From the IMG/VR virus record IMGVR_UViG_3300010389_000135, positions 1 through 24,266 of that record: 24,266 bases of DNA; one strand, given 5' to 3'. The notes beneath the pieces were generated by a model. That model made no database searches and was not told the DNA's origin. It saw only the letters and a list, made by a program, of their open reading frames with translations. The first letter of the stretch is position 1; each line of letters starts with the position of its first letter. The position numbers and the translations under genes are program-made. Below are positions 3,364 through 24,266 of the stretch, in pieces. This DNA is from a virus.

Positions 3364-3554
3364 GCGTGTCCCCATACCTCAATCGGATGCAGTCCGGCGC
3401 GGATCGCAAGACGATCGGCCTGCTCTGCGGTCAGACCGTTCTTGGCGGCCTGATGCAGCGTCTGGGTGTTCGTGCGCGTCGCTTCTCGAAACTTGCGCCA
3501 TGATTTCCCGTAGGCGGTCAGCAGCGGCTCGAGTTCATATCGGCGGTCGCTCAT
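3351..3554 (-). CDS. Small 67-aa protein, possible helix-turn-helix
   Basis: The gene is defined by an ATGA overlap with the annealing-protein gene upstream (3551-3554) and by its position inside a tight replication operon. Residues about 18-64 could fold as several short helices (SWRKFREATRTNTQTLHQAA, then LTAEQADRLAIRAGLHPIEV), reminiscent of an XRE-type helix-turn-helix or of the small DNA-binding proteins that accompany actinophage recombination genes. It has no cysteines, no signal peptide and no membrane segment. I do not recognise a specific family. Purine-rich GAAGGCAGGAGC lies immediately before the start. It could be a small regulator or an accessory factor for recombination. Confidence 0.72.
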   Translation of the reverse strand: MSDRRYELEPLLTAYGKSWRKFREATRTNTQTLHQAAKNGLTAEQADRLAIRAGLHPIEVWGHAWLS

Positions 3555-4210: not shown

Positions 4211-4287
4211 GCGGGTCTCCTTCTGGCGTAGACTCGCATGGTATTTAGGGTCAGCGAAACTGCACTACTGTGACCCGATGTGCGGCT
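4211..4287 (-). promoter_or_regulatory. Intergenic gap with inverted repeat, possible promoter/operator
   Basis: This 77-nt gap precedes the recombination/replication genes in a window where most junctions overlap. GGGTCA (4248-4253) and TGACCC (4271-4276) form an inverted repeat with 17 nt between the arms. The minus-strand 9-mer GGGTCACAG (4268-4276) also occurs in the gap upstream of the methyltransferase. An AT-rich stretch, CTAAATACC on the minus strand, lies about 35 nt upstream of the ATG and could contain a -10 element. No convincing -35 was found. This is inference only. Confidence 0.3.
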
Positions 4288-4872: not shown

Positions 4873-5083
4873 CTCGCGCCTCCCGTTCGGTTGGGCCGAG
4901 CCCTCCCCAAATGCCCAGCCGAAGTCCGGAGCCGGCTTCGGCTTCCATCGCGTCGGCAAGGCATTGTTCCCGCACCGGGCATCTCCTGCAGATGGATACC
5001 GCCTTCTGTCCGGCTTTTGAGGTGCGGCGCGCAAACCAGATGCTGATGCCTTCGCCTCGGCAGGCTGCTTCGTCTTTCCACAT
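4865..5083 (-). CDS. whiB: WhiB-family iron-sulfur transcriptional regulator
   Basis: This 72-aa protein has the complete WhiB signature: Cys8, Cys32, Cys35 and Cys41 (C..., CxxC, CxxxxxC), expected to hold a 4Fe-4S cluster, and the GIWGGL turn at residues 57-62. Trp2, Trp16-Phe17 and Trp59 occupy the aromatic positions used by WhiB1-type proteins to dock on sigma region 4. Only about 10 residues follow GIWGGL, so the basic DNA-binding tail of WhiB7-like members is missing. It probably acts by binding a sigma factor rather than DNA directly. Phage WhiB proteins are known (the TM4 protein interferes with host WhiB2). The start codon is ATG 5083. Upstream AGAGG is about 14 nt away, so initiation may be weak. 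The gene sits 29 nt after the 88-aa gene and overlaps the 194-aa gene. Confidence 0.93.
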   Translation of the reverse strand: MWKDEAACRGEGISIWFARRTSKAGQKAVSICRRCPVREQCLADAMEAEAGSGLRLGIWGGLGPTEREARDG

Positions 5084-5112
5084 GCCTGAAACCGTGCCTC
5101 TGGCCGGGTGCG

Positions 5113-5379
5113 TCAGAACATCCCTGTGACGTTGTCGTTCTTCTCGTCCTGGCGGCGGTGCCAGGCCAGGTGCGCTTCGGTGCGCTTCTCCACCCGCGCG
5201 AGCCGTTCGGACACCTCGCCCATCGTGTTCGCGACCTGGTCGACCGTCTGCACGAGCGTCTTGTCGCGGCTGGCGACGCTCTCCAGCGGTTTCGAGAGTG
5301 CCGCCACTTTTCTCCATGCTGCGGCTGCAGCGAGCGTCGCTGGTGCTGCGCCTATGAGCGCGACGACGATGTCATTCAT
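5113..5379 (-). CDS. Small single-pass membrane protein with coiled coil (holin-like candidate)
   Basis: The protein has 88 residues. Residues about 3-22 (IVVALIGAAPATLAAAAAW) form one hydrophobic segment right at the N-terminus. The rest is charged and heptad-like (TLVQTVDQVANTMGEVSERL) and ends with a His/Arg/Asp-rich tail. This architecture matches small actinophage membrane proteins encoded after the tail genes, some of which are proposed holins. No endolysin lies beside it, so the holin label is tentative. Another possibility is a membrane-anchored superinfection or tail-associated factor. The start overlaps the 54-aa gene by 8 nt (ATGAATGA), with AAGG 6 nt upstream. Confidence 0.75.
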   Translation of the reverse strand: MNDIVVALIGAAPATLAAAAAWRKVAALSKPLESVASRDKTLVQTVDQVANTMGEVSERLARVEKRTEAHLAWHRRQDEKNDNVTGMF

Positions 5380-5536
5380 CCTGCACCTTCTCCCGGCATG
5401 CCCGGCGGTTTCGTTCCTTCTTGCGATCGGTGAAGCGGACGCTACGCCCGCGCCATGCTGCGACCGTACCTCCGTTCCTGAAATGCTGTGCCCGGGCAAG
5501 GCCTCGAGCCACCTTCGCGTCCTGCTGCTGGTTCAC
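5372..5536 (-). CDS. Small basic 54-aa hypothetical protein, GTG start
   Basis: The gene starts with GTG at 5536, overlapping the hub-gene stop as GTGA, and ends inside the start of the 88-aa gene, so it fills the gap exactly. The product is strongly basic (RGRSVRFTDRKKERNRRA), with no membrane segment and a single Cys near the C-terminus. No family is recognised. Its place directly after the tail-tip gene is typical of small uncharacterised late phage proteins. The tight coupling on both sides is the main reason to call it a gene. Its composition alone would not be sufficient. Confidence 0.6.
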   Translation of the reverse strand: MNQQQDAKVARGLARAQHFRNGGTVAAWRGRSVRFTDRKKERNRRACREKVQDE

Positions 5537-11815: not shown

Positions 11816-12387
11816 GAGCCGAGGCCGGTGTCGAAGGCCGGGTCGTCAGTGATCATGTACCAGGCGTCCTGGCCTTCGACCCCAAGGACGCTGAGGGTGA
11901 CCGGGAGGTCGGCGGCAGCGTCTCGGACGATCGACGTCTCGACGTTCTCGACGATCACGCATCGGGGGATCACGAGCCGGTACTTTTTCGTGCCGTCCTG
12001 CCATTCGACGACGGCGGTCAGTTCCTGGAGGGCGTCGCCGTCTTCCGGGGGGTTGAAGCGATAGTCGCCAGACGCGGTGAGCTCGTACGATCCTCCGCCG
12101 AGCGCGACCGCGAAAGTGCCCGCGTTCCACTGGCGCATCGTGAAGGAGATGTCGGCGGTGCGTCCGGTCACCACCCGGCGCACAGGCAGGAGGCTCTGGA
12201 AGGCGGCGATGTCCGCCACCTCGACGCCGAATGAGGCGGAAATGCCTTCCTCGGAGATGTAGCCCATCTCGGAGAAGGAGGACAGCGTCGCGTTCACGCT
12301 GGTGGGAAGCGATGGGTTCGAGATTTCGGGCGCGATGTAGATCGCTCCGCCGCTTCCGACGACGATCTGCGTGGCGTCATTCGACAT
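11812..12387 (-). CDS. Major tail (tube) protein
   Basis: The protein has 191 residues and begins MSNDATQIVVGSGGAIYIAP. It is encoded directly upstream of the chaperone pair (ATGA overlap), the invariant position of the tail-tube gene. The sequence is beta-rich (SELTASGDYR-like and VVEWQDGTKKYRLVIPR segments), as expected for the tube fold that stacks in hexameric rings. It should be one of the most abundant virion proteins. The start has GGAG seven nt upstream. The 59-nt gap before it holds two short palindromes, so this gene may be separately regulated or stabilised. Confidence 0.9.
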   Translation of the reverse strand: MSNDATQIVVGSGGAIYIAPEISNPSLPTSVNATLSSFSEMGYISEEGISASFGVEVADIAAFQSLLPVRRVVTGRTADISFTMRQWNAGTFAVALGGGSYELTASGDYRFNPPEDGDALQELTAVVEWQDGTKKYRLVIPRCVIVENVETSIVRDAAADLPVTLSVLGVEGQDAWYMITDDPAFDTGLGS

Positions 12388-12412
12388 TTAGTGTCTCCGG
12401 GGTAGGTTCTGT

Positions 12413-12442
12413 GGTTACCTGTAACCGGGTCCGGGGACCCGG
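12413..12442. terminator. Pair of adjacent short palindromes between fibre-like and major tail genes
   Basis: GGTTAC-CT-GTAACC (12413-12426) is followed without a gap, and with a 2-nt overlap, by CCGGGTCC-GG-GGACCCGG (12425-12442), an 8-bp perfect stem. They lie in the 59-nt gap between the stop at 12447 and the major tail start at 12387. Loops are very short (2 nt as drawn, 4 if one pair opens) and no T-run follows, so this could be a terminator, an RNA processing or stability element, or a protein-binding site. Confidence 0.4.
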
Positions 12443-12446
12443 CAAG

Positions 12447-12977
12447 TCAGCCGCGCATCGCCAGCGTCATCTCGGTGAAGGTGACGCTCGTGGTGTCCGT
12501 CTCGTTTGCGACCCAGACTTCCAGGTAGTCGCCGTCGGCGAGCGTGACGGCCATAGCGATGGCGCCGTGTTCGCCGATGCCGCCGCCACCCTTCCGCACC
12601 CGCATCAGGCCGCCGGGGATTGGGTTGCCGTTCTTGCGCAGCTCGACGCGGATCGTCTTGTTGTTCCCCGCCGTCACCGAGAAGGACGAGACGACGACCA
12701 CGATGCGTCCGGGACCTTCCGGTAGGTTCAGTGTCAGCCGGTTCTGCGTGTGCGCCGTGCATGGGCACGGCGGCCCGGCGAAGGTTTCGATGTTCGCCTT
12801 CACCGCTGTCCCGGTCTCGGCGATGGTGGTCGCGGCGACGTTCGCTTCCGCATACATGGATCCGCCGACCTTCGGCAGCCGGCTGTCGATGGTGTTCATC
12901 GCCGTCCGGTAGTCGTCTCCCCACGGGCGCTGGCCGTCGGGGGGAAGCGGGAGGTTGTGGTTCGGGGTGGTTGTCAT
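12447..12977 (-). CDS. Fibre/decoration-like protein with C-terminal jelly-roll-like domain
   Basis: The protein has 176 residues. The N-terminus (NLPLPPDGQRPWGDDYRTAM, then NTIDSRL) is the short adaptor motif common at the start of phage tail-fibre and virion-surface proteins. After a helical linker (about 40-65), the C-terminal domain has alternating strands (RIVVVVSSFSV, KTIRVELRKNG, GDYLEVWVANET) like a small TNF/C1q-type jelly roll. A Pro-Cys-Pro-Cys motif at about residue 70 is odd. GGAG lies within the end of the preceding gene, 6 nt before ATG 12977. Its place between tail terminator and major tail protein is unusual for a fibre. It may decorate the tail or head-tail junction, or bind the host surface. 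Function is inferred. Confidence 0.7.
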   Translation of the reverse strand: MTTTPNHNLPLPPDGQRPWGDDYRTAMNTIDSRLPKVGGSMYAEANVAATTIAETGTAVKANIETFAGPPCPCTAHTQNRLTLNLPEGPGRIVVVVSSFSVTAGNNKTIRVELRKNGNPIPGGLMRVRKGGGGIGEHGAIAMAVTLADGDYLEVWVANETDTTSVTFTEMTLAMRG

Positions 12978-12978
12978 G

Positions 12979-13425
12979 CTATTCTCCGAAGGGGTTCAGA
13001 CCGAACTGTGACAGACCGAATCCTGCGTAGGGGTCCGGGTGCACGAAGAGCACGAGGCCGACCAGATATCTTGGCGTGTCGGTGAAGGGGTCCGGGGACC
13101 AGCTGAGCCCGGTCTCCTGCTCGCACAGGTTGATCACCATGCCGCCGGCTATGGTGTCGGTCAGCGCTTCTGCGGCTTCCACCGCTGCGGCGATGAGATC
13201 GAACGCCTCCGCTTTCGTCTCCGCGAAAGCTTCCAGGTTGACGCGCGGCGCATGCAGCCAGCCTGGAATCTGTGGCGATCCTCCGGTGAGGGTGACTCGG
13301 ATGCGTGGCAGCTGCGGGTCGGCGGGCATTTCGGTCGACACTTTTCCGGCGCCTGCCAGTTCGGTCACGCCGGGCGCGCTGTTCAGATGCTCGACCAGCA
13401 TCGCTTCGACGTCAGGCAGTCTCAT
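12979..13425 (-). CDS. Tail terminator-like protein
   Basis: The protein has 148 residues. The start MRLPDVEAMLVEHLN at ATG 13425 overlaps the preceding stop by ATGA. Pattern and length match phage tail terminators or tail-completion proteins (lambda gpU/DUF3168 type): an N-terminal helix, VSTEMPADPQLPRIRVTLTGG, a helix FDLIAAAVEAAEALTDT and C-terminal strands with RYLVGLVLFVHP. These form a hexamer that caps the tail tube and joins it to the head. Its position after the HK97-gp10-like gene and near the tail tube gene is standard. Confidence 0.78.
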   Translation of the reverse strand: MRLPDVEAMLVEHLNSAPGVTELAGAGKVSTEMPADPQLPRIRVTLTGGSPQIPGWLHAPRVNLEAFAETKAEAFDLIAAAVEAAEALTDTIAGGMVINLCEQETGLSWSPDPFTDTPRYLVGLVLFVHPDPYAGFGLSQFGLNPFGE

Positions 13426-13967
13426 CGTCTTCTCTTTCCGGCGCTGATCCGTCGGGCCAGCTCGGATCGGTTCTGCTCGTGCGTCTCCGCGTAGAGGCGT
13501 TCGAATGCTGCGCGCCTGCGCCGGGCCACCGTCTCCGCCGCTTTCGTGAGAATGAAGCGCGGGCCTTTCGCGATGCTGCCGTATTCGATCCACAGCGCTT
13601 TGAAGTCTGCGTTGGTCACGTACCCGACCGCGCCGCCGTAGCCGGAACCCTGCGGATCGCCGGAGACGATCTCGGCGGTTCCTTCCAGCAGCCGGTTCGT
13701 TCCTTTCTGTCCGCGCCGTGCGCGGTTGCGGCGGGTGCCCGCCTTGCCGAGGAAGAGCCGGCGCACTGCTGCTCCGGACGAGACTCCGGAATCGAACTCG
13801 TCTCGGTAGTAGCCTTCATCGAAGGCGTCCCGGGTTGCGTTCGATTCAGCTTCCTGCTGCACCTCGGATGCTATTCTTCCGACCGCGTCCCGCATCGCCG
13901 TCGATCGTCCGATCGCTTCCCAGACGCTGTCGAAGTCGAAGCGCTTGAACTCGTATGCCTGGCTCAC
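13422..13967 (-). CDS. HK97-gp10-like head-tail joining protein, GTG start
   Basis: The protein has 181 residues. GTG at 13967 overlaps the head-closure stop as GTGA, and translation begins V(M)SQAYEFKRFDFDSVW. The C-terminal third has the family pattern ADFKALWIEYGS...GPRFILTKAAETVARR, typical of gp10-like neck or tail-completion proteins. A basic loop near residue 110 (LFLGKAGTRRNRARRGQKGT) is longer than I expect for the family and may contact DNA or partner proteins. No in-frame ATG near the N-terminus fits better, because longer frames run deep into the upstream gene. Confidence 0.78.
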   Translation of the reverse strand: MSQAYEFKRFDFDSVWEAIGRSTAMRDAVGRIASEVQQEAESNATRDAFDEGYYRDEFDSGVSSGAAVRRLFLGKAGTRRNRARRGQKGTNRLLEGTAEIVSGDPQGSGYGGAVGYVTNADFKALWIEYGSIAKGPRFILTKAAETVARRRRAAFERLYAETHEQNRSELARRISAGKRRR

Positions 13968-14284
13968 GGCTCCCACCTTCTCAACTGGATCTCGTAGTGG
14001 TGTACGCCGATGGCGCGTTCTCGGCGCATCGGCTCCGCAGCCACCTCCCAAGTCTCCGCGCCGGAGACGATCCGATCCGCGTGCGCTACGATCGCGGATC
14101 TTGTCCACATGCGCGCGGTCTCCTGTGTCGACTCTTGGTCGTCCACATTCTCGGATCCGGGATTCTCTTCGATGCGTGCGCGGATGTCTGCTACCTTTGC
14201 CCAGTCTCCTGCGCTGTTGCCGTAGCGGTCGGTGCCCGCCTGCTGCCGCTGCACCTCGACGAGCCGGTTCAGAAGACGATCCAT
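13964..14284 (-). CDS. Head closure / head-tail adaptor protein
   Basis: The protein has 106 residues and begins MDRLLNRLVEVQRQQAGTDR. It has the small beta-barrel pattern of SPP1 gp16-like stoppers (RYGNSAGDWAKVADIRARIE, then TWEVAAEPMRRERAIGVHHY). The family closes the portal channel after packaging and links the connector to the tail. It lies one base after the connector gene and overlaps the gp10-like gene by four bases. Confidence 0.8.
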   Translation of the reverse strand: MDRLLNRLVEVQRQQAGTDRYGNSAGDWAKVADIRARIEENPGSENVDDQESTQETARMWTRSAIVAHADRIVSGAETWEVAAEPMRRERAIGVHHYEIQLRRWEP

Positions 14285-14285
14285 G

Positions 14286-14825
14286 TCAGAGCCTAAACGG
14301 TTCGAGAGCCATCATCTCGGCGGCGTGCAATGTGGGCTGCGGGTTCGCGTAGGTGACGGAGTAGGCGCCGATCGTCTCCTGCTTGACGCTTGCGGATCCG
14401 TCGACCAGGCGGGCGGCGAGCCCGAGCACTGCGCCGACGATCACGGGCGGGATCGTGTCGTAGCCTCCGTCGGCGACGACGACGACGGATCCGGGCAGGT
14501 GCGGGAAGGTGAGGTCGTCGATGCGGTTGATGTACCCGTTCGTCGACCAGGCGTATGAGGCGGCCGGAAGGAGCTCGCCGGAGACGGTGACCGAGGTGAC
14601 GTCAATCATCGGAAAGACCGGGACCCTGACCTGGACGGTGCCGTGTCCGTCCAGCCTGAACTGTTCCTCCTGGCGGCTGACGTGGTGTCGCAGGTAGGCG
14701 CGGACCGTCGATGAGGCGATTTCCAACGCCTGCTCTTCTGCAGTCGCCGGCTCTCCGGATCCGGATGGCGTGAGCTCGCGTCCGAGAAACGTGGCGAGCT
14801 CTTCCAATGTGGCCAGGTCATCCAT
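14286..14825 (-). CDS. Head-tail connector protein (gp6/gp15-like)
   Basis: The protein has 179 residues. The start MDDLATLEELATFLGREL at ATG 14825 overlaps the preceding small gene by 8 nt. The N-terminal helical segment (TAEEQALEIASSTVRAYLR) is that of HK97 gp6/SPP1 gp15-type connectors, whose dodecamer sits under the portal. The middle is beta-rich (VPVFPMIDVTSVTVSGELL), and the C-terminal helix IPPVIVGAVLGLAARLVDG follows. A longer frame with an Arg/Lys-rich N-terminus starting further upstream is not used because it would overlap the 53-aa gene almost entirely. Confidence 0.8.
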   Translation of the reverse strand: MDDLATLEELATFLGRELTPSGSGEPATAEEQALEIASSTVRAYLRHHVSRQEEQFRLDGHGTVQVRVPVFPMIDVTSVTVSGELLPAASYAWSTNGYINRIDDLTFPHLPGSVVVVADGGYDTIPPVIVGAVLGLAARLVDGSASVKQETIGAYSVTYANPQPTLHAAEMMALEPFRL

Positions 14826-14979
14826 CGGCGTCCGCCTTCTTGTTCGTCGCCTTCTTGCGGGTCGGCGTCGCTTTCTTCGTACCTTCTGCATGCAAAGGAT
14901 ATCCGCGCTTCTCGGCTTCTTTGCGTGTCATCCGCAGCCACACCTCCGGCTCCACCTCCACCGTCACCATGTCCCTCAT
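14818..14979 (-). CDS. Small 53-aa Lys-rich protein between capsid and connector
   Basis: The start is MRDMVTVEVEPEVWLRMTRK at ATG 14979, with GGAG 5 nt upstream. The stop lies within the connector start (8-nt overlap). The N-terminal half is a short strand-helix segment, and the C-terminal half is a low-complexity basic tail (TKKATPTRKKATNKKADADG). Proteins of this shape are common between capsid and connector genes in actinophages, where their role is unknown. The basic tail could bind packaged DNA or the acidic connector surface. It is the first gene after the capsid hairpin. Confidence 0.72.
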   Translation of the reverse strand: MRDMVTVEVEPEVWLRMTRKEAEKRGYPLHAEGTKKATPTRKKATNKKADADG

Positions 14980-15010
14980 GTCAGCTCCTGTCGCTGGCCT
15001 CATCCGTGCC

Positions 15011-15064
15011 CGCGCAACGGACTGCGCCCGGCCCGTCTTAGTGGGCCGGGCGCGTCCGTGCGCG
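15011..15064. terminator. Long hairpin 12 nt after the capsid stop
   Basis: GCGCCCGGCCC (15024-15034) and GGGCCGGGCGC (15043-15053) pair perfectly over 11 bp around an 8-nt loop. Outside this, CGCGCAACGGAC and GTCCGTGCGCG extend the stem by about 11 more pairs with single-base bulges, to 15011-15064. No T-run follows on either strand, so it is not a classical Rho-independent terminator. It may be a U-tail-less actinobacterial-type terminator or a 3' mRNA stabiliser that raises capsid over downstream expression. Confidence 0.7.
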
Positions 15065-15076
15065 GTGCTTCCGGGA

Positions 15077-16276
15077 TCAGCTGCCGGACGTGAGGTCCAC
15101 GATGCAGACCGCTTCGGGGTTGAGGACTCCGAGCGCCGCGCGCGCCGTCGCAGCGAAAGCGACCATCCCACGGATGGCGAAGTCGCTGTGCTGCGGGTAC
15201 ACCGCGAGGGTGACCGCCTGGCGCTGCCACAAGGCGACCGTCCTGAAGTCCGCGACGATCGCGGTTCCGGACGGAAGCGCCTGGCACTCGACCCGGGGAA
15301 GTCCCCACACGGTGGGGGTGGCGACGCCGGCCGGGCCACCGAACAGGAAGTCCGTGCTCGGCGCGGAGAGCAGGTCCAGCTGCTCGTTGTCCTCGGGCGA
15401 GACCAGGACCGCCGTCGGGCGCGCGTTGCCGACCGTCCGGACCTTCCGGATCGCCTTGCGGAGCGTGGCGACCGAGTCGGTGTCGAACGTCTGCGCCTGC
15501 GTGCCGGAGACGTTCAGGAGCCCGAGCCAGTTCTCGCCAGTGCCGTCGCCGGAGATGAGCTGATCCTCGACCTCCTCCGCGATGGAGTAGGACAGGAACC
15601 CGTTGACGATCGTCTGCAGCTGCGCCGCGTCCGCCAGCGCCCGGGTCGTCGCCGGGATGAAGGTGCGGATGTCACGGACGGCCACCGACTCCTTCTCGAA
15701 CTGGACGGTGCTCTCCGGGGAGAGGTCGCCCTCGGCGGTCGGAGCCGCGGCGTTCGTGGAGCCGGAGCCGAGGCGACGGACCCGAGCGAACTCCACGACG
15801 TCCGAGTCGGTGGAGCCGACGGTGACCAGGTCGACGGCGGTGAGCTCGCGGGCGTATGCCTGGGTGATCGGCTCGTAGCGGTCGTCCTGGAACAGGGTGC
15901 CGGCTCCGGTGGAGTCGTCACCGCCCAGGATCGTCGCCTTGAAGCCGCCGATGGAGACGGTCGGGCTGTTGGTCATGGACTTGGGGTCGGGCGTCCCGTT
16001 CGAGGTGATGCCGTCCCGCCACGCCTTGAACGAGGGGTCGGCGAGGAGGCGCTCACCAGCGGTGCGCGGCGCGGCCTTCTCGGACACCTCGGGCTTCGTC
16101 TCGGCGAGCGCTTCACCCATTTCGGCGACGGCCTTGCGCAGCTCGGCGTCGGCCTTCATCGCCTTCGCACCGGCAACGGCCTGCTCGACCGTCGCACGCT
16201 CGTCGTCGGTGAGGGCGCGGCCCTCGGCGGCGGCGGTCTCAGCGATCTCGCGCGCCTGCTTCATCAGGTCCTTCAT
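15077..16276 (-). CDS. Major capsid protein, HK97 fold
   Basis: The protein has 399 residues. Residues 1 to about 75 are charged and helical (MKDLMKQAREIAETAAAEGR), like the HK97 delta domain that acts as an internal scaffold and is removed by the protease. The rest fits the HK97 capsid pattern: ELTAVDLVTVGSTDS, ESVAVRDIRTFIPATTRALA, SIAEEVEDQLISGDGTGEN and the C-terminal VTLAVYPQHSDFAIRGMVAF. It assembles the icosahedral shell. GAAGGAG nine nt before ATG 16276 is one of the best ribosome sites in the window, as expected for the most abundant product. It follows the protease gene by 30 nt and is followed by a strong hairpin. Confidence 0.93.
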   Translation of the reverse strand: MKDLMKQAREIAETAAAEGRALTDDERATVEQAVAGAKAMKADAELRKAVAEMGEALAETKPEVSEKAAPRTAGERLLADPSFKAWRDGITSNGTPDPKSMTNSPTVSIGGFKATILGGDDSTGAGTLFQDDRYEPITQAYARELTAVDLVTVGSTDSDVVEFARVRRLGSGSTNAAAPTAEGDLSPESTVQFEKESVAVRDIRTFIPATTRALADAAQLQTIVNGFLSYSIAEEVEDQLISGDGTGENWLGLLNVSGTQAQTFDTDSVATLRKAIRKVRTVGNARPTAVLVSPEDNEQLDLLSAPSTDFLFGGPAGVATPTVWGLPRVECQALPSGTAIVADFRTVALWQRQAVTLAVYPQHSDFAIRGMVAFAATARAALGVLNPEAVCIVDLTSGS

Positions 16277-16306
16277 GTTTATGTGCTCCTTCGTGAGGAT
16301 CGGGGT

Positions 16307-17542
16307 TTAGTTGTCGGTGTCGCTCAGCTCTACGAGCGCGAGCGCTACTGCGGCATCCATTCCCTGCTCCTCGGCGTTGGCCGGGGGTTCCGGCTCCTCC
16401 GCCTTGACAGGCTCGGCTGCTGTCCGGATCCTGGAAGTCATCTGGTCGAGGATTTCTGCTGCCTCAGCCAGCTGTTCCAGCATCCGGTCGGGACCCGTAA
16501 CCGATGCCGGGGCTTCGGCAAGCGTCGCGTCCGTCTTGGCCTCGATGAGGCGTGTGGCGGGGTTCGCTCCTTTCAGCGTCGGTCCGGCTTCCAGAATGTG
16601 GAGCTTGCGAAGTTCGTTCACCCCGTCGACCGACTTCTCCTCGTCGAGAATGTCGTAGGCGAAGCTGAACTCGCTGACGACCCGCTCGGCGAGCAGGGTG
16701 CGGACCTGCTGGGCGCGGGGGGTGTCGAAGAAGGTGCCGCGCACGACCAAGCCTTCGTCCGTCTCCTCCGCTGTGACCGCTTTGCCGATGAAGGACTCGG
16801 CGCTTCCCCAGTCGTGGTTCCACACGATCGGGATGCTGCGGCCCTTCTCCTGGTAGCTGCGGAGACTGTCGGCGAACGCTCCGCGCTTCACCCGGTCTCC
16901 TGCCAGATCGGTGTTCTCGAAGACCGAGACGACGGCGGTGAACTCTCCCGGGCCGGTGTCGTTCTTGGCAGCCGGTGCGACCTTGATGTCGGCGGCGAAA
17001 GTCTTGACCTGCATGTTGGCGTGCTCCTTCTCTGTCGGATCTGTGCCGCGTTCCCCACGCCGTTCGGCGGCGGCCACCTGACGCTTCGCCCAGTCCCATC
17101 CGGCGTCGCCTCCCCACAGCTGCCAGGCAATGAAACCATTGGAAGGCCATTCCTCGGATCCGCGTCGGAATCCGGGCGCGGCCCGGTCGACCTCGTGCCG
17201 GGCGAAGTAGGCGCGCATTTTGACCGCGAGATCGAGATCTACGCGATTGTCGACGATCCGGCGGGCGGTGCCCGCGCCGACCGAAGTTCCTCCTCGCCCG
17301 TACTCTTCGCGGAGCCGCAGACCTTCGGCGGCGGCGCGGCGCATTCTGGCATTCGTCGGCAGGTTATTCTTGGCGCCGGCGGCACGTTCGCCGCCCGGTT
17401 CGATGTCCTCCTCTATGCTGACAGCGACCATCTGATCGATCGCTTCCTGGCGGGTGCGGTGGCATCCGATGACCTCGCCGTCGTCCTTCTCCACTGCCCA
17501 TCCGTTGCAGTCGGGGTTCTCGTTCGTGATATAGTAGGGCAT
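16307..17542 (-). CDS. Prohead protease with N-terminal extension
   Basis: The full frame from ATG 17542 (TGATG overlap with portal stop) gives 411 residues. Residues 1-50 (MPYYITNENPDCNGWAVEKD and on) form a small cap domain. Residues about 58-162 include YFARHEVDR and WQLWGGDAGWDWAKRQV, a domain often seen ahead of actinophage proteases. From about residue 178 comes an HK97-type (herpes-assemblin-like) serine protease with the likely catalytic His243 in IPIVWNHDW and Ser293 in EFSFAYD. It should cut the capsid delta domain during maturation. The C-terminal 60 residues are acidic and Ala/Pro/Glu-rich. Met177 (position 17014) has its own GAAGGAG and would give a 235-aa protease of standard size. 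Confidence 0.88.
   Translation of the reverse strand: MPYYITNENPDCNGWAVEKDDGEVIGCHRTRQEAIDQMVAVSIEEDIEPGGERAAGAKNNLPTNARMRRAAAEGLRLREEYGRGGTSVGAGTARRIVDNRVDLDLAVKMRAYFARHEVDRAAPGFRRGSEEWPSNGFIAWQLWGGDAGWDWAKRQVAAAERRGERGTDPTEKEHANMQVKTFAADIKVAPAAKNDTGPGEFTAVVSVFENTDLAGDRVKRGAFADSLRSYQEKGRSIPIVWNHDWGSAESFIGKAVTAEETDEGLVVRGTFFDTPRAQQVRTLLAERVVSEFSFAYDILDEEKSVDGVNELRKLHILEAGPTLKGANPATRLIEAKTDATLAEAPASVTGPDRMLEQLAEAAEILDQMTSRIRTAAEPVKAEEPEPPANAEEQGMDAAVALALVELSDTDN
17024..17030 (-). promoter_or_regulatory. Internal ribosome site in the protease gene
   Basis: GAAGGAG lies nine nt upstream of in-frame Met177 (ATG 17014). It is the same sequence at the same spacing as at the capsid gene and is followed by the same GAAGGAGCAC or similar bases. 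It would let the protease domain (235 aa) be made without the first 176 residues, whereas the ATG at 17542 has no comparable site and depends on coupling to the portal stop. Confidence 0.62.
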
Positions 17543-19500
17543 CAGAGGCCTCGGTTGAAGTCGACGATGCACTGGCAGTTCGCGCGCTGATCCAGCGGAA
17601 GCGCCGGGTCGCCTGGCCACTTCGCGCCGTTGGGAAAAAGCTCTCCTATGCCGACGGTGACGCCCGAGAGGGACGCGTGCTCGCTGCGGGGATTCTGCGA
17701 GGTGGTCAGCCACGTCTTGGTCCGCCGTCCGGAGGCCTGCGCTGCTTCGGCTCTTCCGAAGTTGAACGTCGCCGCCGCCAGCGTCATTCCGGCCAGCACC
17801 GCTTCGTTGTCTCGCAGGGTCTCGTAGATGTTGGCGACCGCTCCGGTCGCATCCTCCTCGTCCAGGGCACTGCCAATCCGATTCGACATCGTGTCGTTCA
17901 TCGCTTCTGCTGTCGCGGACGCGACCGCGTCGAACCATTCGGTGGCGTTGGTGGCGTCCCAGTCGCCGACGGTCGCGGCGGCGTCCTCCGCTGCGCGCAC
18001 CAGTTCGGGCCGCAAGTCACCGGCCAACTCTCGGTCGAATCTCTCCCGGTCGAACAGGTCGCCGACCTCCGCCTTCGCTCCGTTCGCGGTCTTCGTCTGC
18101 GCTCCAAGACGGGATCGCACCGAACGTCCTTGCCGTTCCAGCGCGGCGAGGATCGTGTTGTTGATGCGCTCGGATGCGCGGTTGCGGATGCGGGCGTACC
18201 GTTCCAGCTCGTCCGGATCCACCGCTTGCTTTTTCTGCGGTTCGGGTGCGGACGCCGTGCCCACTGGCCTGTCCTGAGGGCGGGCGGTGTCCTGCGGGGA
18301 TGCGAGCCCGCCGACGAGAACGTTCAGCGGCACCACCAAGTCGTCCGCGCCATCGACGCTCGGCAGGTTGAGACGCGCCCGCGCTTCGTTCCGAGTCAGA
18401 TATGGCGCGCCCACCGACGCCTGCAGCACGGCGGCCTGCTCCTCGAAGGAGCCTCGAAGTTTGTCGGCGAGTTGGAACTCCAGGTAGGTGTTTTCGTCCG
18501 TCTCGTCGAAGTCCGGCAGCATCTGCGCCGAGAGGACCTGCTCGATCTTCGTGAGCCACGGCGCGAGGCTGTCCTGGTAGAGCTGGCGGTGCTGCTCGGT
18601 CAGGCTGGAATAGTTGGCTTGCCCGAGGCCGAGGAGCCCGAGCGGGATGCCGTATGTGGATGCGACGATCTCCCTGGAGAGCTGGCTGACCTCCAGGTAC
18701 TGCGCGTCGCGTGGCGAGAAGGTTTCCAGCGGCTTCGCTGTCATGCCCTCCTCCAGGACAGCGGTCTTTCCGGATGCGGCGTCTCCGGTGTAGCTGGCTT
18801 CCCAGTCTGCGCGGAAACGCTCGCGGGCCGCTTCGCTCCACTGCGGCGAAGTCGCGGGCCGTTCGATGACGAGCGAGGCGCGGGCGCCGCGCTTCCACAG
18901 TCCTTCCCGGTGTTCGGCGGCGGCGACCTGCTCGGCGATCAGCTGGCGCAACGCCTCCAGCGGGCTGAGACCGCGCCGCAGATCCAACGGGTTGTAGCCG
19001 TGGAAGTGGATCACCTGATCGACTTCGTATTCGATGGCGCCCTTGTTGCCGCTGATCCTGTACCCTTCCGGCGCCAGCATGCTGTTGCCGAAGACCTCCA
19101 CCAGCGGCACCGGCACCCGGACCAGGGCGATGCGTCCGTCCGGTCCGGCGACCTTGATTCGAAAAGCTTCGTCGTATATCGCCAGGTCCTTCACGAGCGC
19201 TTCTACCCAGGCGCTGAGAGTGCTGTCGGGATCGGGCCGCGTCAGCGTGCGGGCGAGCGGCGTGCCGCGCACCCGGTCTCGGCCGCCGTCGTCCTCCATC
19301 CTGTATGCGTGCAGCGGCACCTGCGCGATGTTCCGCGCGAGGAAGTCGACCACCATCCGCACCTCATGCTGCGTGCGGTAGATCGCTGCGTAGTCTGCGC
19401 GGCGCCCGTTGTACAGCGGCAACGTGGTCGCGACGCTTCCTCCGTAGAGATTCGGCGCCGAGGTGGTGACCAGGCCGTCCAAGTTCTCGATGATGGCCAC
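17542..19500 (-). CDS. Portal protein fused to MuF-like head morphogenesis domain
   Basis: The protein has 652 residues. Residues 1 to about 400 are an HK97-type portal: RTQHEVRMVVDFLARNIAQV, then LARTLTRPDP, DQVIHFHGYNPLDLRRGLSP, and STYGIPLGLLGLGQANYSS. The dodecamer is the vertex through which DNA enters. After a Pro/Gln-rich linker (about 400-430), residues about 440-652 are helical and end in the MuF pattern: KTWLTTSQNPRSEHASLSGV, then GDPALPLDQRANCQC. MuF proteins are usually separate minor head proteins. Here one chain has both functions. The start is GTG 19500 with GGAG 7 nt upstream, two bases after the Sm-like gene. No stop or frameshift separates the two domains. Confidence 0.92.
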   Translation of the reverse strand: MAIIENLDGLVTTSAPNLYGGSVATTLPLYNGRRADYAAIYRTQHEVRMVVDFLARNIAQVPLHAYRMEDDGGRDRVRGTPLARTLTRPDPDSTLSAWVEALVKDLAIYDEAFRIKVAGPDGRIALVRVPVPLVEVFGNSMLAPEGYRISGNKGAIEYEVDQVIHFHGYNPLDLRRGLSPLEALRQLIAEQVAAAEHREGLWKRGARASLVIERPATSPQWSEAARERFRADWEASYTGDAASGKTAVLEEGMTAKPLETFSPRDAQYLEVSQLSREIVASTYGIPLGLLGLGQANYSSLTEQHRQLYQDSLAPWLTKIEQVLSAQMLPDFDETDENTYLEFQLADKLRGSFEEQAAVLQASVGAPYLTRNEARARLNLPSVDGADDLVVPLNVLVGGLASPQDTARPQDRPVGTASAPEPQKKQAVDPDELERYARIRNRASERINNTILAALERQGRSVRSRLGAQTKTANGAKAEVGDLFDRERFDRELAGDLRPELVRAAEDAAATVGDWDATNATEWFDAVASATAEAMNDTMSNRIGSALDEEDATGAVANIYETLRDNEAVLAGMTLAAATFNFGRAEAAQASGRRTKTWLTTSQNPRSEHASLSGVTVGIGELFPNGAKWPGDPALPLDQRANCQCIVDFNRGL

Positions 19501-19502
19501 GA

Positions 19503-19721
19503 TCAGTCTCCAAGCGTCTGTATAAACTCGATCCGTGCCCGCTCGATGAGAATGGTCCCGCTGGCTGGCTGTGGATTCAGTCCTGGCTCAATGACCTCGG
19601 GGTCACGCACTTCCAGGAGCGCGCCGCGCTGCGACATCAGAATGCCTCGGACGGCGCGCCCGGTGTCGAGGTTGATCAGCACCCGCTTCCGGATTGCGAG
19701 CTTCCGGTAGCCGGTCAGCAT
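19503..19721 (-). CDS. Small Sm/SH3-like beta-barrel protein
   Basis: The protein has 72 residues. The pattern RVLINLDTGRAVRGILMS-QRGALLEVRD, a charged break, then GTILIERARIEFIQTL matches the five-strand layout of LSm/Hfq-like barrels (Sm1 with LxxGRxxxG, Sm2 with IxRxxIxFI). I see no cysteines and no membrane segment. Two overlapping starts are compatible, and ATG 19721 overlaps the 285-aa gene stop by one base. It lies between terminase and portal. A capsid or connector accessory role is likely by position, and RNA binding is possible by fold. The fold call is from pattern only. Confidence 0.7.
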   Translation of the reverse strand: MLTGYRKLAIRKRVLINLDTGRAVRGILMSQRGALLEVRDPEVIEPGLNPQPASGTILIERARIEFIQTLGD

Positions 19722-20578
19722 CAGCTGCCCGGTGCGGCGACCAGGGCGGCGACGAAGAGCCCGGCGCCGTGTCCGCTCACGATCCCGCCGCCCGGGGTGA
19801 TGGTGGCCGGAAGTGCGGAGGCCATCGTCCAGCTCTCGTTGTTGAGGGCCTGCTGCATCCAGACGGACGAGAGTGCGCCGAAGAAGGCGGTCGCGCTTTC
19901 GGGGATCCCGTCCTCACCTGTGGGGCTGACGCCGATGCCGGAATGCTGACCGAATGAGAGCACCGGCGGCTGCCCGCCGCCGTAGGGATCCTGGACGGAC
20001 TGCACGGCTCCGCCGATCCAATACCGGGTGCCCGCCGTCAGCGTCACCGCCGAAGGCAACGTCCATGAGAGCATCCCGTTCTGTGAGGTGAAAGCGCCTG
20101 CGGGCGGGCTGACGTAATCGGGCGGCGCGATGCGCAACTTCTCGGATCCGGTCACGAGCGTGGCGGGCAGGCCGGCCTCGTTCGCCTCGTAGATGAAAAG
20201 TCGCAGCTCGACGCCTTCGGCGTTGCCGCCTGCGGCGATGGGCGGGTTGAAGGGCACGTTGATGCCGAGCTTGGAGATGCTCGCGTCCGCGTCGAAGATG
20301 AGCGGCGACGCGGTCGCGAGACCGAAGTTTTGCTGACCGAGCCAAGAGACGCCCTTCGGGTGGTGGTAGTTGCCGATGACGGGCGTCTGCGTCTCGAACA
20401 GGCCGACGACCTGCTCGACGGGCGCGGCAGGAGCTTCTGCTTCCCAGTTGCCGGTTCCGGCGTTGTATACGAGAAGGTCGTTGTCGTTCGGCGCGTCGGC
20501 GTCGACGTCAGTCAATCCGTTGAGTGCGGTCACGCCGGATCCTCCGGTTCCTGGAGCGAAATATGAGCTGTCCATCAT
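19721..20578 (-). CDS. Virion surface / fibre-like protein with C-terminal beta-sandwich
   Basis: The protein has 285 residues. After a Gly-rich start, residues about 18-45 carry LNGLTDVDADAPNDNDLL, the short repeat common in phage fibres and receptor-binding proteins ('L-x-D-L-x-D-V-...-D-G-D-x-L'). Residues about 60-280 are beta-rich and aromatic (GTRYWIGGAVQSVQDPYGG, then SVWMQQALNNESWTM), like a concanavalin- or carbohydrate-binding jelly roll. It has two Met at the start. ATG 20578 gives an ATGA overlap with the 93-aa gene. Its place in the head module suggests a head fibre or surface adhesin, though some actinophages encode minor tail proteins here. The receptor-binding role is inference. 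Confidence 0.72.
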   Translation of the reverse strand: MMDSSYFAPGTGGSGVTALNGLTDVDADAPNDNDLLVYNAGTGNWEAEAPAAPVEQVVGLFETQTPVIGNYHHPKGVSWLGQQNFGLATASPLIFDADASISKLGINVPFNPPIAAGGNAEGVELRLFIYEANEAGLPATLVTGSEKLRIAPPDYVSPPAGAFTSQNGMLSWTLPSAVTLTAGTRYWIGGAVQSVQDPYGGGQPPVLSFGQHSGIGVSPTGEDGIPESATAFFGALSSVWMQQALNNESWTMASALPATITPGGGIVSGHGAGLFVAALVAAPGS

Positions 20579-20856
20579 GGCACCTTCATCACGCGGACCG
20601 TCAGGCCCTCTTCGGCGGCGATCCCGTAGGCTTCGCCGTACAGCGGAAGTGCGAGCGTCCTGGATGCGCCTGCAGGCAGCGGCATCCCGTTCTCGACCGT
20701 CACGGCCGGTCCGCCCATGTAGACTGTAGATCCGGATCCGTTGTGGATTTCGTAGGTCACCCTGCCGTCTTTCCCGGCGGAGGCGACGTCGTCGACGCGG
20801 GCGAGACGGACCGCAGCGGTTCCGACCGTCTTCAGCTCTGTGGTGATGCTGCTCAT
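20575..20856 (-). CDS. Small beta-rich virion-associated protein
   Basis: The protein has 93 residues. The pattern VYMGGPAVTVENGMPLPAG, then SRTLALPLYGEAYGIAAEEG and LTVRVMKV is the common phage 'YxGGxxVTxxNGxPLxAG' fold, seen in small structural proteins near the head genes or tail fibres. It probably decorates the virion, but no experiment on this family is known to me. It lies between terminase large subunit and fibre-like protein, with 4-nt ATGA overlaps on both sides. Confidence 0.75.
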   Translation of the reverse strand: MSSITTELKTVGTAAVRLARVDDVASAGKDGRVTYEIHNGSGSTVYMGGPAVTVENGMPLPAGASRTLALPLYGEAYGIAAEEGLTVRVMKVP

Positions 20857-22478
20857 GCGAACTCGATCCCTCTGTCCTCGTAGACGCTGCGGCCCGGCCC
20901 TCCGGCTTTCAGCATCGCGCTGTTGAGAGCCATCACCGTCGCTACCGTTCCGTCGATTCGTGCCGCGCTGCTGGACTTGTCCGGCTTGACATTACCAGCT
21001 GGGTCCGCCTTCACCCGTGCCGCATCGACGTGAGCCCGCAAGACGGGGTGTCCTCCGTGCCTGATTGCTTGCGACATCACCAGTCGTTCCAGTTCTTTGG
21101 TCGGCGCGCTCATCGTCGCAAAACCCTGGCGGGTTGGCACGCAGGTCATTCCTGCTTCCATCAGGTCGGTGACCAGCCCGGTCGCATTCCAGGGGTCGTA
21201 TGCGAGCTCGATGATGTGATGCTTGTCGGCAAAGTCGGTGAGCCAGGCGCGGATGAAGTTGTAGTCGACGACGTTTCCTGGCGTCAGGTGCAGGTGCCCG
21301 GCGGCGGCCCAGTCTCTGTATGGCAGCCGGTCCCGGCGTTCGCGTTCGGCGAGGTCGGCTTCCGGTAGCCAAAATGTAGGGAGGACAGTGAAGGTTTTGT
21401 CGTCCTCCGGGAAAAGTGCTACCGCTGCGGAGACGTCCGTGGTGCTGGACAGGTCGAGGCCGATGTAGCATCTGCGGCCTTCCATCTCTTGGGCGTCGAT
21501 CGGTTCTCCTGCGCATGCGTCCCAAGCTTTCATGTCCAGCCATCTCTGGACTTCTCGGGTCCACTTGTTCAGGTAGAGCTGCGCGAAGGTCGTTTGGCGC
21601 GCGGGCGACACCTTCGCTCTCCGCGCTTCCTCTTCCAGAAACTCTCGGCTGATCGTTTGGCCGAGCGACGGGTTCGCTTTCTCCCAGCTTTCCGGCTCGT
21701 CCCACGGCGCGTCGTCCGACCCGGCGTTGTAGATGACCGCCAAGTAGCTCGGGTCCTCAACCTCCTCGGCTGCGACCTTGATTGCGTATGCGTGCTGCTC
21801 CCAGGCGATGGAATGCGGATCGTAGACGCCCGCCGTCGTGATGCCGATGATGAGCGGCTGCCTTCGTGCGCCGACACTGCTGCTCAGAACGTCCCACAAC
21901 TCTCTGCTTTTGTGGACGTGGACCTCATCGAGGATCGCAAAGTGTGCGTTCAGACCGTGCTGGCCGGGTGCGTCTCCGGACAGCGCTCGCAGGACGTTGC
22001 CGCCCTTCTGCGTCTGGATGTAGCTGCGGTGGGTTTTGCACCGGCTGCTGATGTGCGGGGAAGCCTCTATCATCCTCTTCGCCAGGTCGAAACACAGGCG
22101 CGCCTGCGGGCGATCCCGGGCGCCGATGTAGATTTGCGCGCCCGCTTCCCGATCGGCGATCAGTCCGTATATCGCGAGTCCGGCTGCGAGCGTCGTCTTC
22201 GCATTTTTCCTGGGGACCTCGAGCCACATGGTTCGGTAGAGCCGGCGGCCATCTGCACGCTTGTACCCGAAAAGCGGCCGGATGATTTCGTATTCCATCC
22301 ACGGCATCAGCTCGAACTTCTCTCCGGCGTGCTCGCCCTCCACCAGGTGAAGCAGGCCGAAAAACTTGACCGCCCGGTCCGCTGCTTCTTCGTCGTAGTA
22401 GGCTCCGGGTGGTATCTGCTTTCCGGCGCTGGTGTAGGCAGGTTCAGTCCAGGAGATCTCCGATGTCTGATCCTGCAT
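20853..22478 (-). CDS. terL: Terminase large subunit
   Basis: The protein has 541 residues. The ATPase domain (about 50-300) has Walker A VPRKNAKTT at residues 88-96, a Terminase_1-type variant, and Walker B FAILDEVHVHK with Asp184/Glu185. The RNase-H-like nuclease (about 335-530) shows YIGLDLSSTTD with Asp342, ELAYDPWNATGL, and near the C-terminus SSAARIDGTVATVMAL, where the late acidic residue binds metal. It cuts concatemers and drives DNA into the prohead. The start ATG 22478 has AAGGAG 5 nt upstream and overlaps the small subunit by 35 nt. No intein or homing nuclease insertion is present. Confidence 0.95.
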   Translation of the reverse strand: MQDQTSEISWTEPAYTSAGKQIPPGAYYDEEAADRAVKFFGLLHLVEGEHAGEKFELMPWMEYEIIRPLFGYKRADGRRLYRTMWLEVPRKNAKTTLAAGLAIYGLIADREAGAQIYIGARDRPQARLCFDLAKRMIEASPHISSRCKTHRSYIQTQKGGNVLRALSGDAPGQHGLNAHFAILDEVHVHKSRELWDVLSSSVGARRQPLIIGITTAGVYDPHSIAWEQHAYAIKVAAEEVEDPSYLAVIYNAGSDDAPWDEPESWEKANPSLGQTISREFLEEEARRAKVSPARQTTFAQLYLNKWTREVQRWLDMKAWDACAGEPIDAQEMEGRRCYIGLDLSSTTDVSAAVALFPEDDKTFTVLPTFWLPEADLAERERRDRLPYRDWAAAGHLHLTPGNVVDYNFIRAWLTDFADKHHIIELAYDPWNATGLVTDLMEAGMTCVPTRQGFATMSAPTKELERLVMSQAIRHGGHPVLRAHVDAARVKADPAGNVKPDKSSSAARIDGTVATVMALNSAMLKAGGPGRSVYEDRGIEFA

Positions 22479-22893
22479 CGGTGCTCCTTACTCTGCTTCG
22501 ACTGCTTGGGGTGAGTCCGAACTCCGCTCCGAGCCGTGCGACCAGCTGGGCTGCGTCTCTCTGGATCTGGACGGCGGGATTTTTGACGACTCCGTCCCGG
22601 CGGCCTTTGACCATGATTCCTGTTCGATCCACAATCTCCGTCGCTCGCTGCAGGTTCACCACGGCGGTGCAGTAGGCGGCGAGAATGTCTGTGTCCGCTT
22701 CGCTGGCGATCCCCATCTCTTTGAGCTGCGCGACCGTTCTTCGCCAGACCTTTTTCGCGTCATCGGAAAGCCATGCCGGTGCACGCGGCGGTTTCGCAGA
22801 CGGCGTCGGCTCCGCTGTGTTGATCCGGTCCTTTCGTTCACCCTGGACGATCCGCAGATGTGTTGGCTTCGGCTTCGGTCCCGGGGTACTCAT
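22444..22893 (-). CDS. terS: Terminase small subunit, P27 family
   Basis: The protein has 149 residues. The start has MSTPGPKPKPTHLRIVQGER, the 'GxPxKPTxLxxxxG' hallmark of P27-type small terminases. The rest is helical (AWLSDDAKKVWRRTVAQLKE, then ADTDILAAYCTAVVNLQRA, then NPAVQIQRDAAQLVARLGAE, then FGLTPSSRSRV). It recognises the packaging site and recruits TerL. ATG 22893 overlaps the methyltransferase stop by ATGA and has no clear ribosome site, so it depends on coupling. Confidence 0.92.
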   Translation of the reverse strand: MSTPGPKPKPTHLRIVQGERKDRINTAEPTPSAKPPRAPAWLSDDAKKVWRRTVAQLKEMGIASEADTDILAAYCTAVVNLQRATEIVDRTGIMVKGRRDGVVKNPAVQIQRDAAQLVARLGAEFGLTPSSRSRVRSTDAGSDIGDLLD

Positions 22894-24212
22894 TCTGTCT
22901 GATCCGGTCTTGGGACCTCATCGCCTTCTCCGAAGTTCGGGGTGAGGTCCAGTTCTGTTCCGTTTAGTTTCGGCAGGTTCCCGGTCGCCTCCTGCCAGCG
23001 TCGGGCAATGATGTCGCAATACTTCGGGTCCAGTTCGATGGTCCTGCAGGTTCGCCCGGTTGCCTCGCATGCCATCAGCGTGCTTCCGGATCCACCGAAC
23101 GGATCGAGGACCATGCCTCCGTATTTCACGCTGTTCTCGATCGCTCTGGTGAGCAGCTCGATCGGCTTCGTGGTCGGATGCAGTTCGCTCTTCGTCGGAC
23201 GATCGACCAGCCAGACGTCGCTCTGCGTGCGGTCGAGGACTGCGGCGAGCCGTGCTGCGTTATCGTTCCAGCCGTACCAGATCGGATCCATCGGACCGTT
23301 GTGTCCGTTCCAGATCGGTTCGTACTGGCTGTGGTAGTCCCGGCGTCCGAGGACGAGCCGGTCCTTCACCCAGATGATGGTTGCGCTCCAATGGAACCCT
23401 GCGGCCCGCATCGCCCGGTCGACCGACGGCCATTCGTTCGCGCCCATCACGACATAGGCGGGCGCGCCCGGCTTTGTCCGCTCCTTGAAGCGTGTCGTGA
23501 ATCCGTGGACGAAGGTTTCCCAGTCGCTTTTGTTCATGTGGTCGTTCAGGATCCCTCGGCCTTTGCTGTCCTTCTCACCGATGTTGACGTTCCACGGCGG
23601 GTCGGTCAGAAGCATGTCGGCCTTCTCTTTCTTCATCAGCTTGTCGTAGGTCTTGGCGTCCGTGCTGTCTCCGCAGATCAGCCGGTGCCGCCCGAGCTCC
23701 CACACGTCTCCCGGCTTCGAGACCACCTTGATCGGTGGTTCCGGCACCTGGTCGGTGATCTTGGGATCCGGCTTGTGCGTTTCTGCGAGGATCTCCGCCA
23801 GGTCGCCTTCCGTCCACCCGGTCGCAGCGAGCAGCTCCGTCTCTGCTTGCACCTGCTGGATCAGCGCCGCGAGAGCTTCTTTGTCGTACCCACCGAGCTC
23901 CGCCGTCCGGTTGTCCGCGAGAGCGTATGCTTTCGCGGTGCCATCGTCGTGTTCTACGAAGACGGCGGCGATCCGATCCCAGCCCAACTGCCGGGCCGCT
24001 TGCAACTGATGGTTGCCGGCGATCACAGTCCCGATCGGGCCGTGCTCGTTCTCACCTGTCCGCCTCACCACGATCGGTTTCAGCTGGCCGAAGGTCTCGT
24101 AGCTCTTGGCGACCGCTTGGACGTTTCCCTGACGCGGGTTGCCCTTCAGGAGTTCGATGTTGTCCAGAGGGACGGTCAGCGGTTCCAGCTGCGGGGAGAT
24201 GTTGGGATCCAT
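22890..24212 (-). CDS. ParB-like N-terminal domain fused to N6-adenine DNA methyltransferase
   Basis: The protein has 440 residues. Residues about 14-125 are a ParB/Srx-like domain (VPLDNIELLKGNPRQGNVQA, then GTVIAGNHQLQAARQLGWDR). The usual Arg of the ParB nucleotide motif is replaced (GNHQLQAA). From about 165 follows the methyltransferase: LICGDSTDA, catalytic DPPW at 204-207, then the SAM-binding DPFGGSGST at 370-378. The DPPW motif precedes the SAM motif, so it is a beta-class enzyme, and DPPW points to adenine N6 methylation. No partner nuclease is present. It should protect phage DNA or mark it for packaging, replication or gene control. The frame stays open upstream of ATG 24212 to the edge of the window and no ribosome site is seen, so the true start may be further right. 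Confidence 0.9.
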   Translation of the reverse strand: MDPNISPQLEPLTVPLDNIELLKGNPRQGNVQAVAKSYETFGQLKPIVVRRTGENEHGPIGTVIAGNHQLQAARQLGWDRIAAVFVEHDDGTAKAYALADNRTAELGGYDKEALAALIQQVQAETELLAATGWTEGDLAEILAETHKPDPKITDQVPEPPIKVVSKPGDVWELGRHRLICGDSTDAKTYDKLMKKEKADMLLTDPPWNVNIGEKDSKGRGILNDHMNKSDWETFVHGFTTRFKERTKPGAPAYVVMGANEWPSVDRAMRAAGFHWSATIIWVKDRLVLGRRDYHSQYEPIWNGHNGPMDPIWYGWNDNAARLAAVLDRTQSDVWLVDRPTKSELHPTTKPIELLTRAIENSVKYGGMVLDPFGGSGSTLMACEATGRTCRTIELDPKYCDIIARRWQEATGNLPKLNGTELDLTPNFGEGDEVPRPDQTE

Positions 24213-24266
24213 GCTTGTATCTGTGACCCCACCCGGGGGGGTGACAAAAGTGGGCGAACTTGTCGG
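24213..24266. other. Short non-annotated right edge
   Basis: These 54 bases precede the methyltransferase start. They contain CCC followed by seven G (24232-24241) between two copies of GTGAC (24223-24227 and 24241-24245), and the minus-strand 9-mer GGGTCACAG that recurs at 4268-4276. No stop codon interrupts the methyltransferase frame. GC-rich sites upstream of terminase genes can be packaging sites, but nothing here identifies one. Confidence 0.3.

Follow-up and report, generated by a model that had tools for sequence, protein, structure and literature searches.

The window analysed here is the complete 24,266-base virus record IMGVR_UViG_3300010389_000135, and its head module is encoded on the minus strand. 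Within this module, a single frame of 411 codons is located between the portal gene (17542-19500) and the gene for an HK97-type major capsid protein (15077-16276). Its product is identified as a prohead protease by PF04586 (56.7 bits, cut-off 21) and TIGR01543 (71.2 bits, cut-off 59). The interval between the terminase and portal genes also contains a frame of 285 aa (window positions 19721-20578) without a Pfam match. The features of this region are as follows.

20853-22478, minus strand: terminase, head module
17542-19500, minus strand: portal protein, upstream gene (profile matches)
17540-17544, minus strand: TGATG, in which the portal stop codon and the long-form ATG overlap (coupled translation possible)
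16307-17542, minus strand: long form, consisting of cap, WGG-type domain and HK97-type prohead protease, 411 aa (stop codon included in the coordinates)
17384-17542, minus strand: cap, residues 1-53 (weakly DUF2188-like, under the Pfam cut-off; predicted to be folded, pLDDT above 90)
17069-17347, minus strand: WGG-type domain, about residues 66-158 (phrog_2859)
16955-17068, minus strand: linker, residues 159-196 (171-196, containing Met177, predicted to be disordered)
17024-17029, minus strand: internal Shine-Dalgarno sequence AAGGAG, aligned spacing 8 to the ATG at 17014 (kept in the relatives L007, L008 and L165)
17012-17014, minus strand: internal start codon ATG, Met177 (most relatives have ATG, GTG or TTG there or at most 3 codons away)
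16307-17014, minus strand: putative nested short form, a 235-aa protease from Met177 (Shine-Dalgarno sequence and start position kept in relatives)
16523-16954, minus strand: protease domain, residues 197-340 (predicted assemblin / T4 gp21 fold)
15077-16276, minus strand: major capsid protein, downstream gene (profile matches; AAGGAG at 16291-16286)

Domain organization of the long frame

The 60-sequence structure model comprises two well-folded N-terminal domains, a disordered segment (residues 171-196) that includes Met177, and the protease domain (residues 197-340). This organization agrees with the initial annotation of the DNA, in which the long form was described as adding a cap and a WGGDAGWDWA-type domain to the protease. 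When the predicted model is compared with solved structures, the protease domain resembles herpesvirus assemblins and T4 gp21, with matches to 1vzv (residues 197-338, Z 12.0, rmsd 2.4, 114 aligned) and to T4 gp21 5jbl_B (residues 187-325, Z 11.7, rmsd 3.2, 137 aligned). H243 and S293, which we take to be the catalytic His/Ser pair of the protease, are invariant across the 60 sequences.

According to this model, the 235-aa product that would start at Met177 holds an HK97-type protease in full. Its profile score, gene position and predicted fold all place it with the HK97-type prohead proteases (Peptidase_S78, TIGR01543). It had initially been proposed that the long and short forms might act as scaffold or protease pairs. 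This proposal gains no support, and the reading of the short form as a scaffold was rejected since the short product holds the entire protease domain (197-340), while the N-terminal addition consists of two domains predicted to be compact and folded.

A search of solved structures with the N-terminal 165 aa gave no Foldseek match at E <= 0.001, with a best second-look Z of 5.2; this absence does not show that the fold is new. The N-terminal model does match parts of many predicted phage proteins, some of which are named prohead protease, portal, XkdF, capsid fragment, Dps and ParB, in a list that gives no position within the target. Matches to predicted proteins with the names portal, capsid, Dps and ParB are as expected of a head-linked domain, and they fit, but do not prove, a head-linked or cargo role. 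The N-terminal inserts vary among relatives (L001, L040, L070 and L006), and include a P-loop AAA_33 domain, Hva1_TUDOR domains and a Cys-rich RACGNC...CNAW stretch.

Putative internal start in the window and its closest relatives

Codon 177 of the frame 17542-16307 (minus strand) is an ATG at 17014-17012, preceded by GAGAAGGAGcacgccaac, with AAGGAG at 17029-17024 and an aligned spacing of 8 to Met177. By a spacing-aware Shine-Dalgarno (SD) score, this codon ranks first among the 14 in-frame ATG, GTG and TTG codons after residue 10, whereas by duplex energy without fixed spacing it is only third in the frame. Among 22 start sites of the window (from genes picked by eye, with one entry, 13413, that is not at a start codon), its score of 10.7 equals those of the major capsid gene and of the gene at 4210 and is exceeded solely by that of TerL (12.0), compared with 7.7 for the long-form ATG. 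These values bear out the initial annotation, which had placed a second start with a better ribosome-binding site at Met177. The leader of the capsid gene, gaaggagcacataaacATG, is nearly identical to that of Met177.

As for the chance level, a score of 10.7 is reached by 2 of the 93 other internal in-frame ATGs, and by 10 of the 265 internal ATG, GTG or TTG codons, in the listed genes of the window. When the region upstream of Met177 was resampled synonymously within the window alone, an equally good SD appeared in 48% of the draws (p 0.48, no signal), so that the window by itself does not tell whether this SD is more than a consequence of coding for E-K-E. The Met177 site is unusual, and the evidence of the window alone is only suggestive.

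The first ATG of the long form has a weaker SD than Met177. It shares one base with the portal stop codon (TGATG), and given this overlap, the long-form start may be served by translation coupled with that of the portal. The same one-base overlap occurs in 54 of the 149 relatives tested; for 92 of these 149, the end of an upstream frame could be located.

Among the matches listed, the relatives nearest to the window that share its domain order are L007, L008 and L165 (57, 54 and 56% identical to the window, respectively). They retain AAGGAGG, AGGAGG and AAGGAGG, respectively, 8 bases before ATG CAR GTN AAR; the SD and the ATG are kept although the residues of the linker differ. At the internal start, L009-L011 have a GTG with GGTGA, L166 has a GTG without a clear SD, and the ATG of L001/L002, in which a P-loop domain is inserted, lacks a good SD. 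The initial annotation had named disappearance of the internal site, in relatives of the same domain order, as grounds for rejecting two products; this check turned out mostly favorable to them. In the three closest relatives the site persists and most of the family keeps ATG, GTG or TTG in this place, whereas some members have no such codon.

The putative internal start across the family and in related proteases

Relatives were collected by scanning IMG/VR contigs once with the window protein and four times with alignments, with the best 80 or fewer loci taken from each scan. Three of these scans had at least 551-593 confirmed relatives each, which means that the family is larger than the set analysed; the cap-WGG-protease family is a large one, of mostly uncultured phages. 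No relative was found in a profile scan of genome contigs with alignment A1, megablast of window positions 12000-24266 against phages gave no match, and a literature search, with thin coverage of subscription journals, returned no report of the family. Among the matches listed, 295 of the 321 ORFs (at least 120 codons, with any of the three domains) combine cap, WGG and protease in one frame, as obtained from searches that rank fused loci first, and cap-WGG and protease do not occur as adjoining separate genes (ORFs of at least 120 codons) in any listed locus. In L015 and L026/L225, the protease is broken into two frames, and cap-WGG is still joined to the first part. A stand-alone cap-WGG gene of 171 aa is present in L204 (2001-2516), outside a head module, with neighbors that appear by eye to be resolvase-like and exonuclease-like.

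The 309 ORFs with a protease match yielded 300 loci after removal of L050, which has a different architecture, and of ORFs in which the protease match starts after profile position 20 or ends before position 60. These loci are represented by 160, 106 and 67 sequences at 90, 80 and 70% identity, respectively. The set included the window itself (L005) and duplicate contigs, the duplicates being removed by clustering.

A residue that doubles as a start may vary between Met, Val and Leu, but its codon must remain ATG, GTG or TTG. This logic was applied to the junction column, i.e., the position where stand-alone proteases begin, with expected counts derived from the codon usage of each gene. At 90% clustering (160 representatives, window included), 158 sequences have a residue in this column, namely 44 Met (ATG), 57 Val or Leu, and 57 others, and GTG or TTG is used in 55 of the 57 Val/Leu codons against 13.8 expected. 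When 722 columns of the whole-frame alignment were scanned, the junction column ranked first (53 of 56, z 13.1), ahead of the annotated start column, which serves as a built-in positive control (z 5.2), and of the next column (5.0). It is also first at 80, 70 and 65% clustering (z 9.3, 6.3 and 5.1, respectively; at 65%, the first of 150 columns). The Poisson-binomial p value for this column is 7.7e-33 at 90%, 6.9e-9 at 70% and 2.9e-6 at 65% clustering; at 60%, too few codons are left (4 of 7) and the test is not significant (p 0.09). On the protease tree of the 106 representatives of the 80% set, 61 of which have Met, Val or Leu in the column, there are at least 16 switches between these residues, and 33 of the 36 Val/Leu codons are GTG or TTG.

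Comparison across the family thus shows a putative internal start codon that is conserved in most of its members at the place where stand-alone proteases start. This conservation goes beyond the amino acid, a mark of internal-start genes (55/57 Val/Leu codons as above; not significant at 60% clustering). Met177 of the window lies 2-3 codons off the strict column in the large alignments, and the strict column signal is driven by distant relatives, so that Met177 itself is supported by its close relatives and its position rather than by the column count.

The internal start lies just ahead of the first protease residues (MSKIETR, MKKIERR, MVTPVEPR, MQVKSF). A start-type codon is found at most 3 codons from the junction column in 90 of the 106 representatives, compared with 34% elsewhere; it is absent within this range in 16, and within -14 to +4 in 6. 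The loose window of -14 to +4 was discarded as evidence: 100 of 106 representatives are positive but the background is 67%, and for this reason the analysis relied on tight windows and on the codon-column test. The mean SD-like strength at the start-type codon nearest to the junction (154 of the 160 representatives, with such a codon within -14 to +4) is 7.46, compared with 4.82 at other in-frame codons and 7.13 at the long-form starts. In phiPsal1, the TTG at the junction is not the top-scoring site of its own frame. In 100 frames, mRNA structure is predicted to be weaker around the internal start than at other places (mean z 0.97, and 0.78 for the long start, uncorrected for composition). 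Conservation of the ribosome site at synonymous positions, which the initial annotation had suggested as a check, is seen family-wide at 90% clustering (8.9e-7) but is not significant at 70% (0.11); given this dependence and the p of 0.48 in the window, the synonymous SD test was rejected as main evidence.

The stand-alone proteases of the eight cultured phages that we read are 238-260 aa long and start in or close to the corresponding position, 18-25 residues before a conserved G-[EQT]-F or similar motif as judged by eye. The 235 aa of the short product are close enough to this range for the view that it has the size of a standard protease. Each of the eight genes has a single start, which lies at the protease; the family of the window differs by the added cap and WGG-type domain.

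A different N-terminal extension of the same protease is found in corynephages. In gp5 of Corynebacterium phage BFK20, an apparent P-loop domain (assigned by motif; phrog_9644) is fused to the HK97-type protease. Residue 147, the position matching that at which Korravirus proteases begin, is an ATG that follows GGAGGTGA, and no other site of the frame comes near its score (17.6 vs 9.2). In phi673, the GTG codon of gp4 Val144, after GGTGA, occupies the same place and is the best in its frame by a narrow margin (10.0 vs 9.9), and the letters at the nested start of phi674 (L342) are identical to those of phi673. C. glutamicum ATCC 13032 is given as the host of phi673 and phi674 in the available part of the source. 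Thus, BFK20 gp5 and gp4 of phi673 and phi674 resemble the window family in having an N-terminal extension and a nested start on the same protease, but the extension is P-loop-like rather than cap plus WGG. The BFK20 record lists gp5 among the structural proteins found, with the form unspecified. Among the 80 loci brought by BFK20 gp5, a stop lies at most 60 codons upstream of the protease start in 66, and 14 are open further; the P-loop domain is present in 3 of these 14 (BFK20, phi673 and phi674; L340-L342), and the remaining 11 have an unrelated upstream reading, by eye. With 3 of 80 loci, the kinase-type (P-loop) fusion is rare in this set. In phiPsal1, BFK20, phi673 and phi674, each frame is annotated as one gene encoding one long protein.

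Two putative products and their possible roles

Based on the comparisons above, we consider it very probable that the frame is translated from two starts, yielding a long form from 17542 and a short protease from 17014 through an SD of its own. Two proteins from one frame had already been suggested in the initial annotation, and comparison across relatives argues in favor of this idea, both products being putative. Under this scheme, the long form would start at the ATG located on the portal stop codon and would carry the cap and the WGG-type domain ahead of the protease, whereas ribosomes that use the internal start, with its own SD, would produce an ordinary HK97-type protease. The predicted disordered linker would join the N-terminal part and the protease. 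We propose that the short form could be the main enzyme filling the prohead and the long form a minority tied to portal translation, whose N-terminal domains would be delivered inside the prohead or at the portal vertex. Coupling to portal translation would give few long copies and the separate site presumably more short ones. With an internal start, the phage could also gain or exchange N-terminal domains while the supply of free protease is kept.

The internal site might alternatively be a relic of the joining of an upstream gene to the protease gene, such that the old start and SD persist by descent and only the long form matters. BFK20 is proof that fusions with other domains exist, the residues before the site (K-E, K-G-E-A) give SD-like DNA anyway, and some family members have no start codon at the junction. 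Such a relic would drift, however, whereas through at least 16 Met/Val/Leu replacements on the tree, 33 of 36 Val/Leu codons have stayed GTG or TTG, and the codon signal persists at 70 and 65% clustering, making this scenario unlikely. It is also conceivable that too little of the long form is produced to matter, with the real gene starting at Met177 and the upstream part being a separate small gene that lacks a stop. The stronger SD of the internal start in the window and the stand-alone cap-WGG gene of L204 are in line with this possibility, but we regard it as highly improbable given that 295 of 321 ORFs are single-frame cap-WGG-protease genes with no neighboring split pair (among the matches listed, fused loci being ranked first) and that the first start codon, too, is kept as ATG, GTG or TTG, with SD-like strength.

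Free protease could, moreover, arise without internal initiation if a single long protein trimmed itself within the linker. Prohead proteases are known to cut themselves, and residues 171-196 are predicted to be disordered. Self-cleavage would not select GTG among the Val codons or TTG among the Leu codons, and we give it hardly any credence as a replacement for internal initiation, in addition to which it may still act.

With translation from two starts as the preferred explanation, we tentatively consider a further, rather doubtful possibility, namely that the protease is a carrier. Exchangeable N-terminal domains (cap, WGG-type, P-loop, Tudor-like, Cys-rich) would reach the prohead or portal vertex via a few long copies coupled to portal translation, and the internal start would supply most of the free protease. 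If so, the phage could change its cargo without disturbing head maturation.

Nested starts in head-protease genes are known from other phages. In lambda, Nu3, a scaffold without protease, is produced from an in-frame start within the head-protease gene C; the head-protease gene of the window likewise has a putative nested start, but here the putative short form is the protease. In Mu, where the protease belongs to another protease family, the protease and scaffold genes are presumably I and Z. By its sequence features, the gene of the window shares with the Mu and lambda type an in-frame internal start, a ribosome site of its own and a common stop, whereas its short product contains the protease domain instead of being a scaffold without one. 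According to the available part of one report, the Mu scaffold is made from an in-frame start inside the protease gene, and ORF 27 of PaMx73 has a putative start at Val177 (PMC4378225). As far as that text goes, these head-protease genes contain, as in the window, an internal start in the same frame that is preceded by a separate SD, but their short product is the scaffold, encoded by the final part of the frame, whereas here it would be the protease, to which the long form adds N-terminal domains (PMC4378225). Lambda C, Nu3 and the portal B act together in head initiation, according to the accessible text of another source (PMC3224144). In the portion available of a third, two-start endolysin genes are described as common in phages of Gram-positive hosts and are shown by experiment (PMC9430671). 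These two-polypeptide endolysins are similar in that one gene has two in-frame starts and a shared stop codon; they differ in being experimentally demonstrated lysis enzymes, the window case being a head protein predicted from its sequence (PMC9430671).

If the two starts are used, a large phage family makes two head proteases from a frame that is given as one gene in the four annotated examples read, and the list of head proteins of these phages is therefore incomplete. This would also be a way for a phage to attach new domains to a head enzyme without losing the enzyme. Conserved switching between ATG, GTG and TTG offers a simple test for other fused phage genes, for example, the protease-capsid fusions of Roseobacter phages.

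In Roseobacter phages CRP-406, CRP-831 and CRP-811 (L333, L336 and L338, respectively), WGG, protease and capsid form single frames that are annotated as major capsid protein. An internal ATG follows GGAGG, AAGGAG and TAAGGAG, respectively, before the capsid part, which was delimited by eye, and CRP-406 has an additional AAGGA..ATG before the protease part; judging from these sequences, such frames may be triple nested genes. In Synechococcus phages S-CBS1 and S-CBS3, the corresponding sites are not among the best-scoring ones. In CRP-823 (L337), the same frame is split into overlapping frames 2911-3627 and 3587-5839, both annotated as major capsid protein. Finally, a frame of 570 codons in L050 (from 1475) combines the cap with another protease and, by eye, an apparent capsid protein, and has AAGGAG before an ATG at residue 235.
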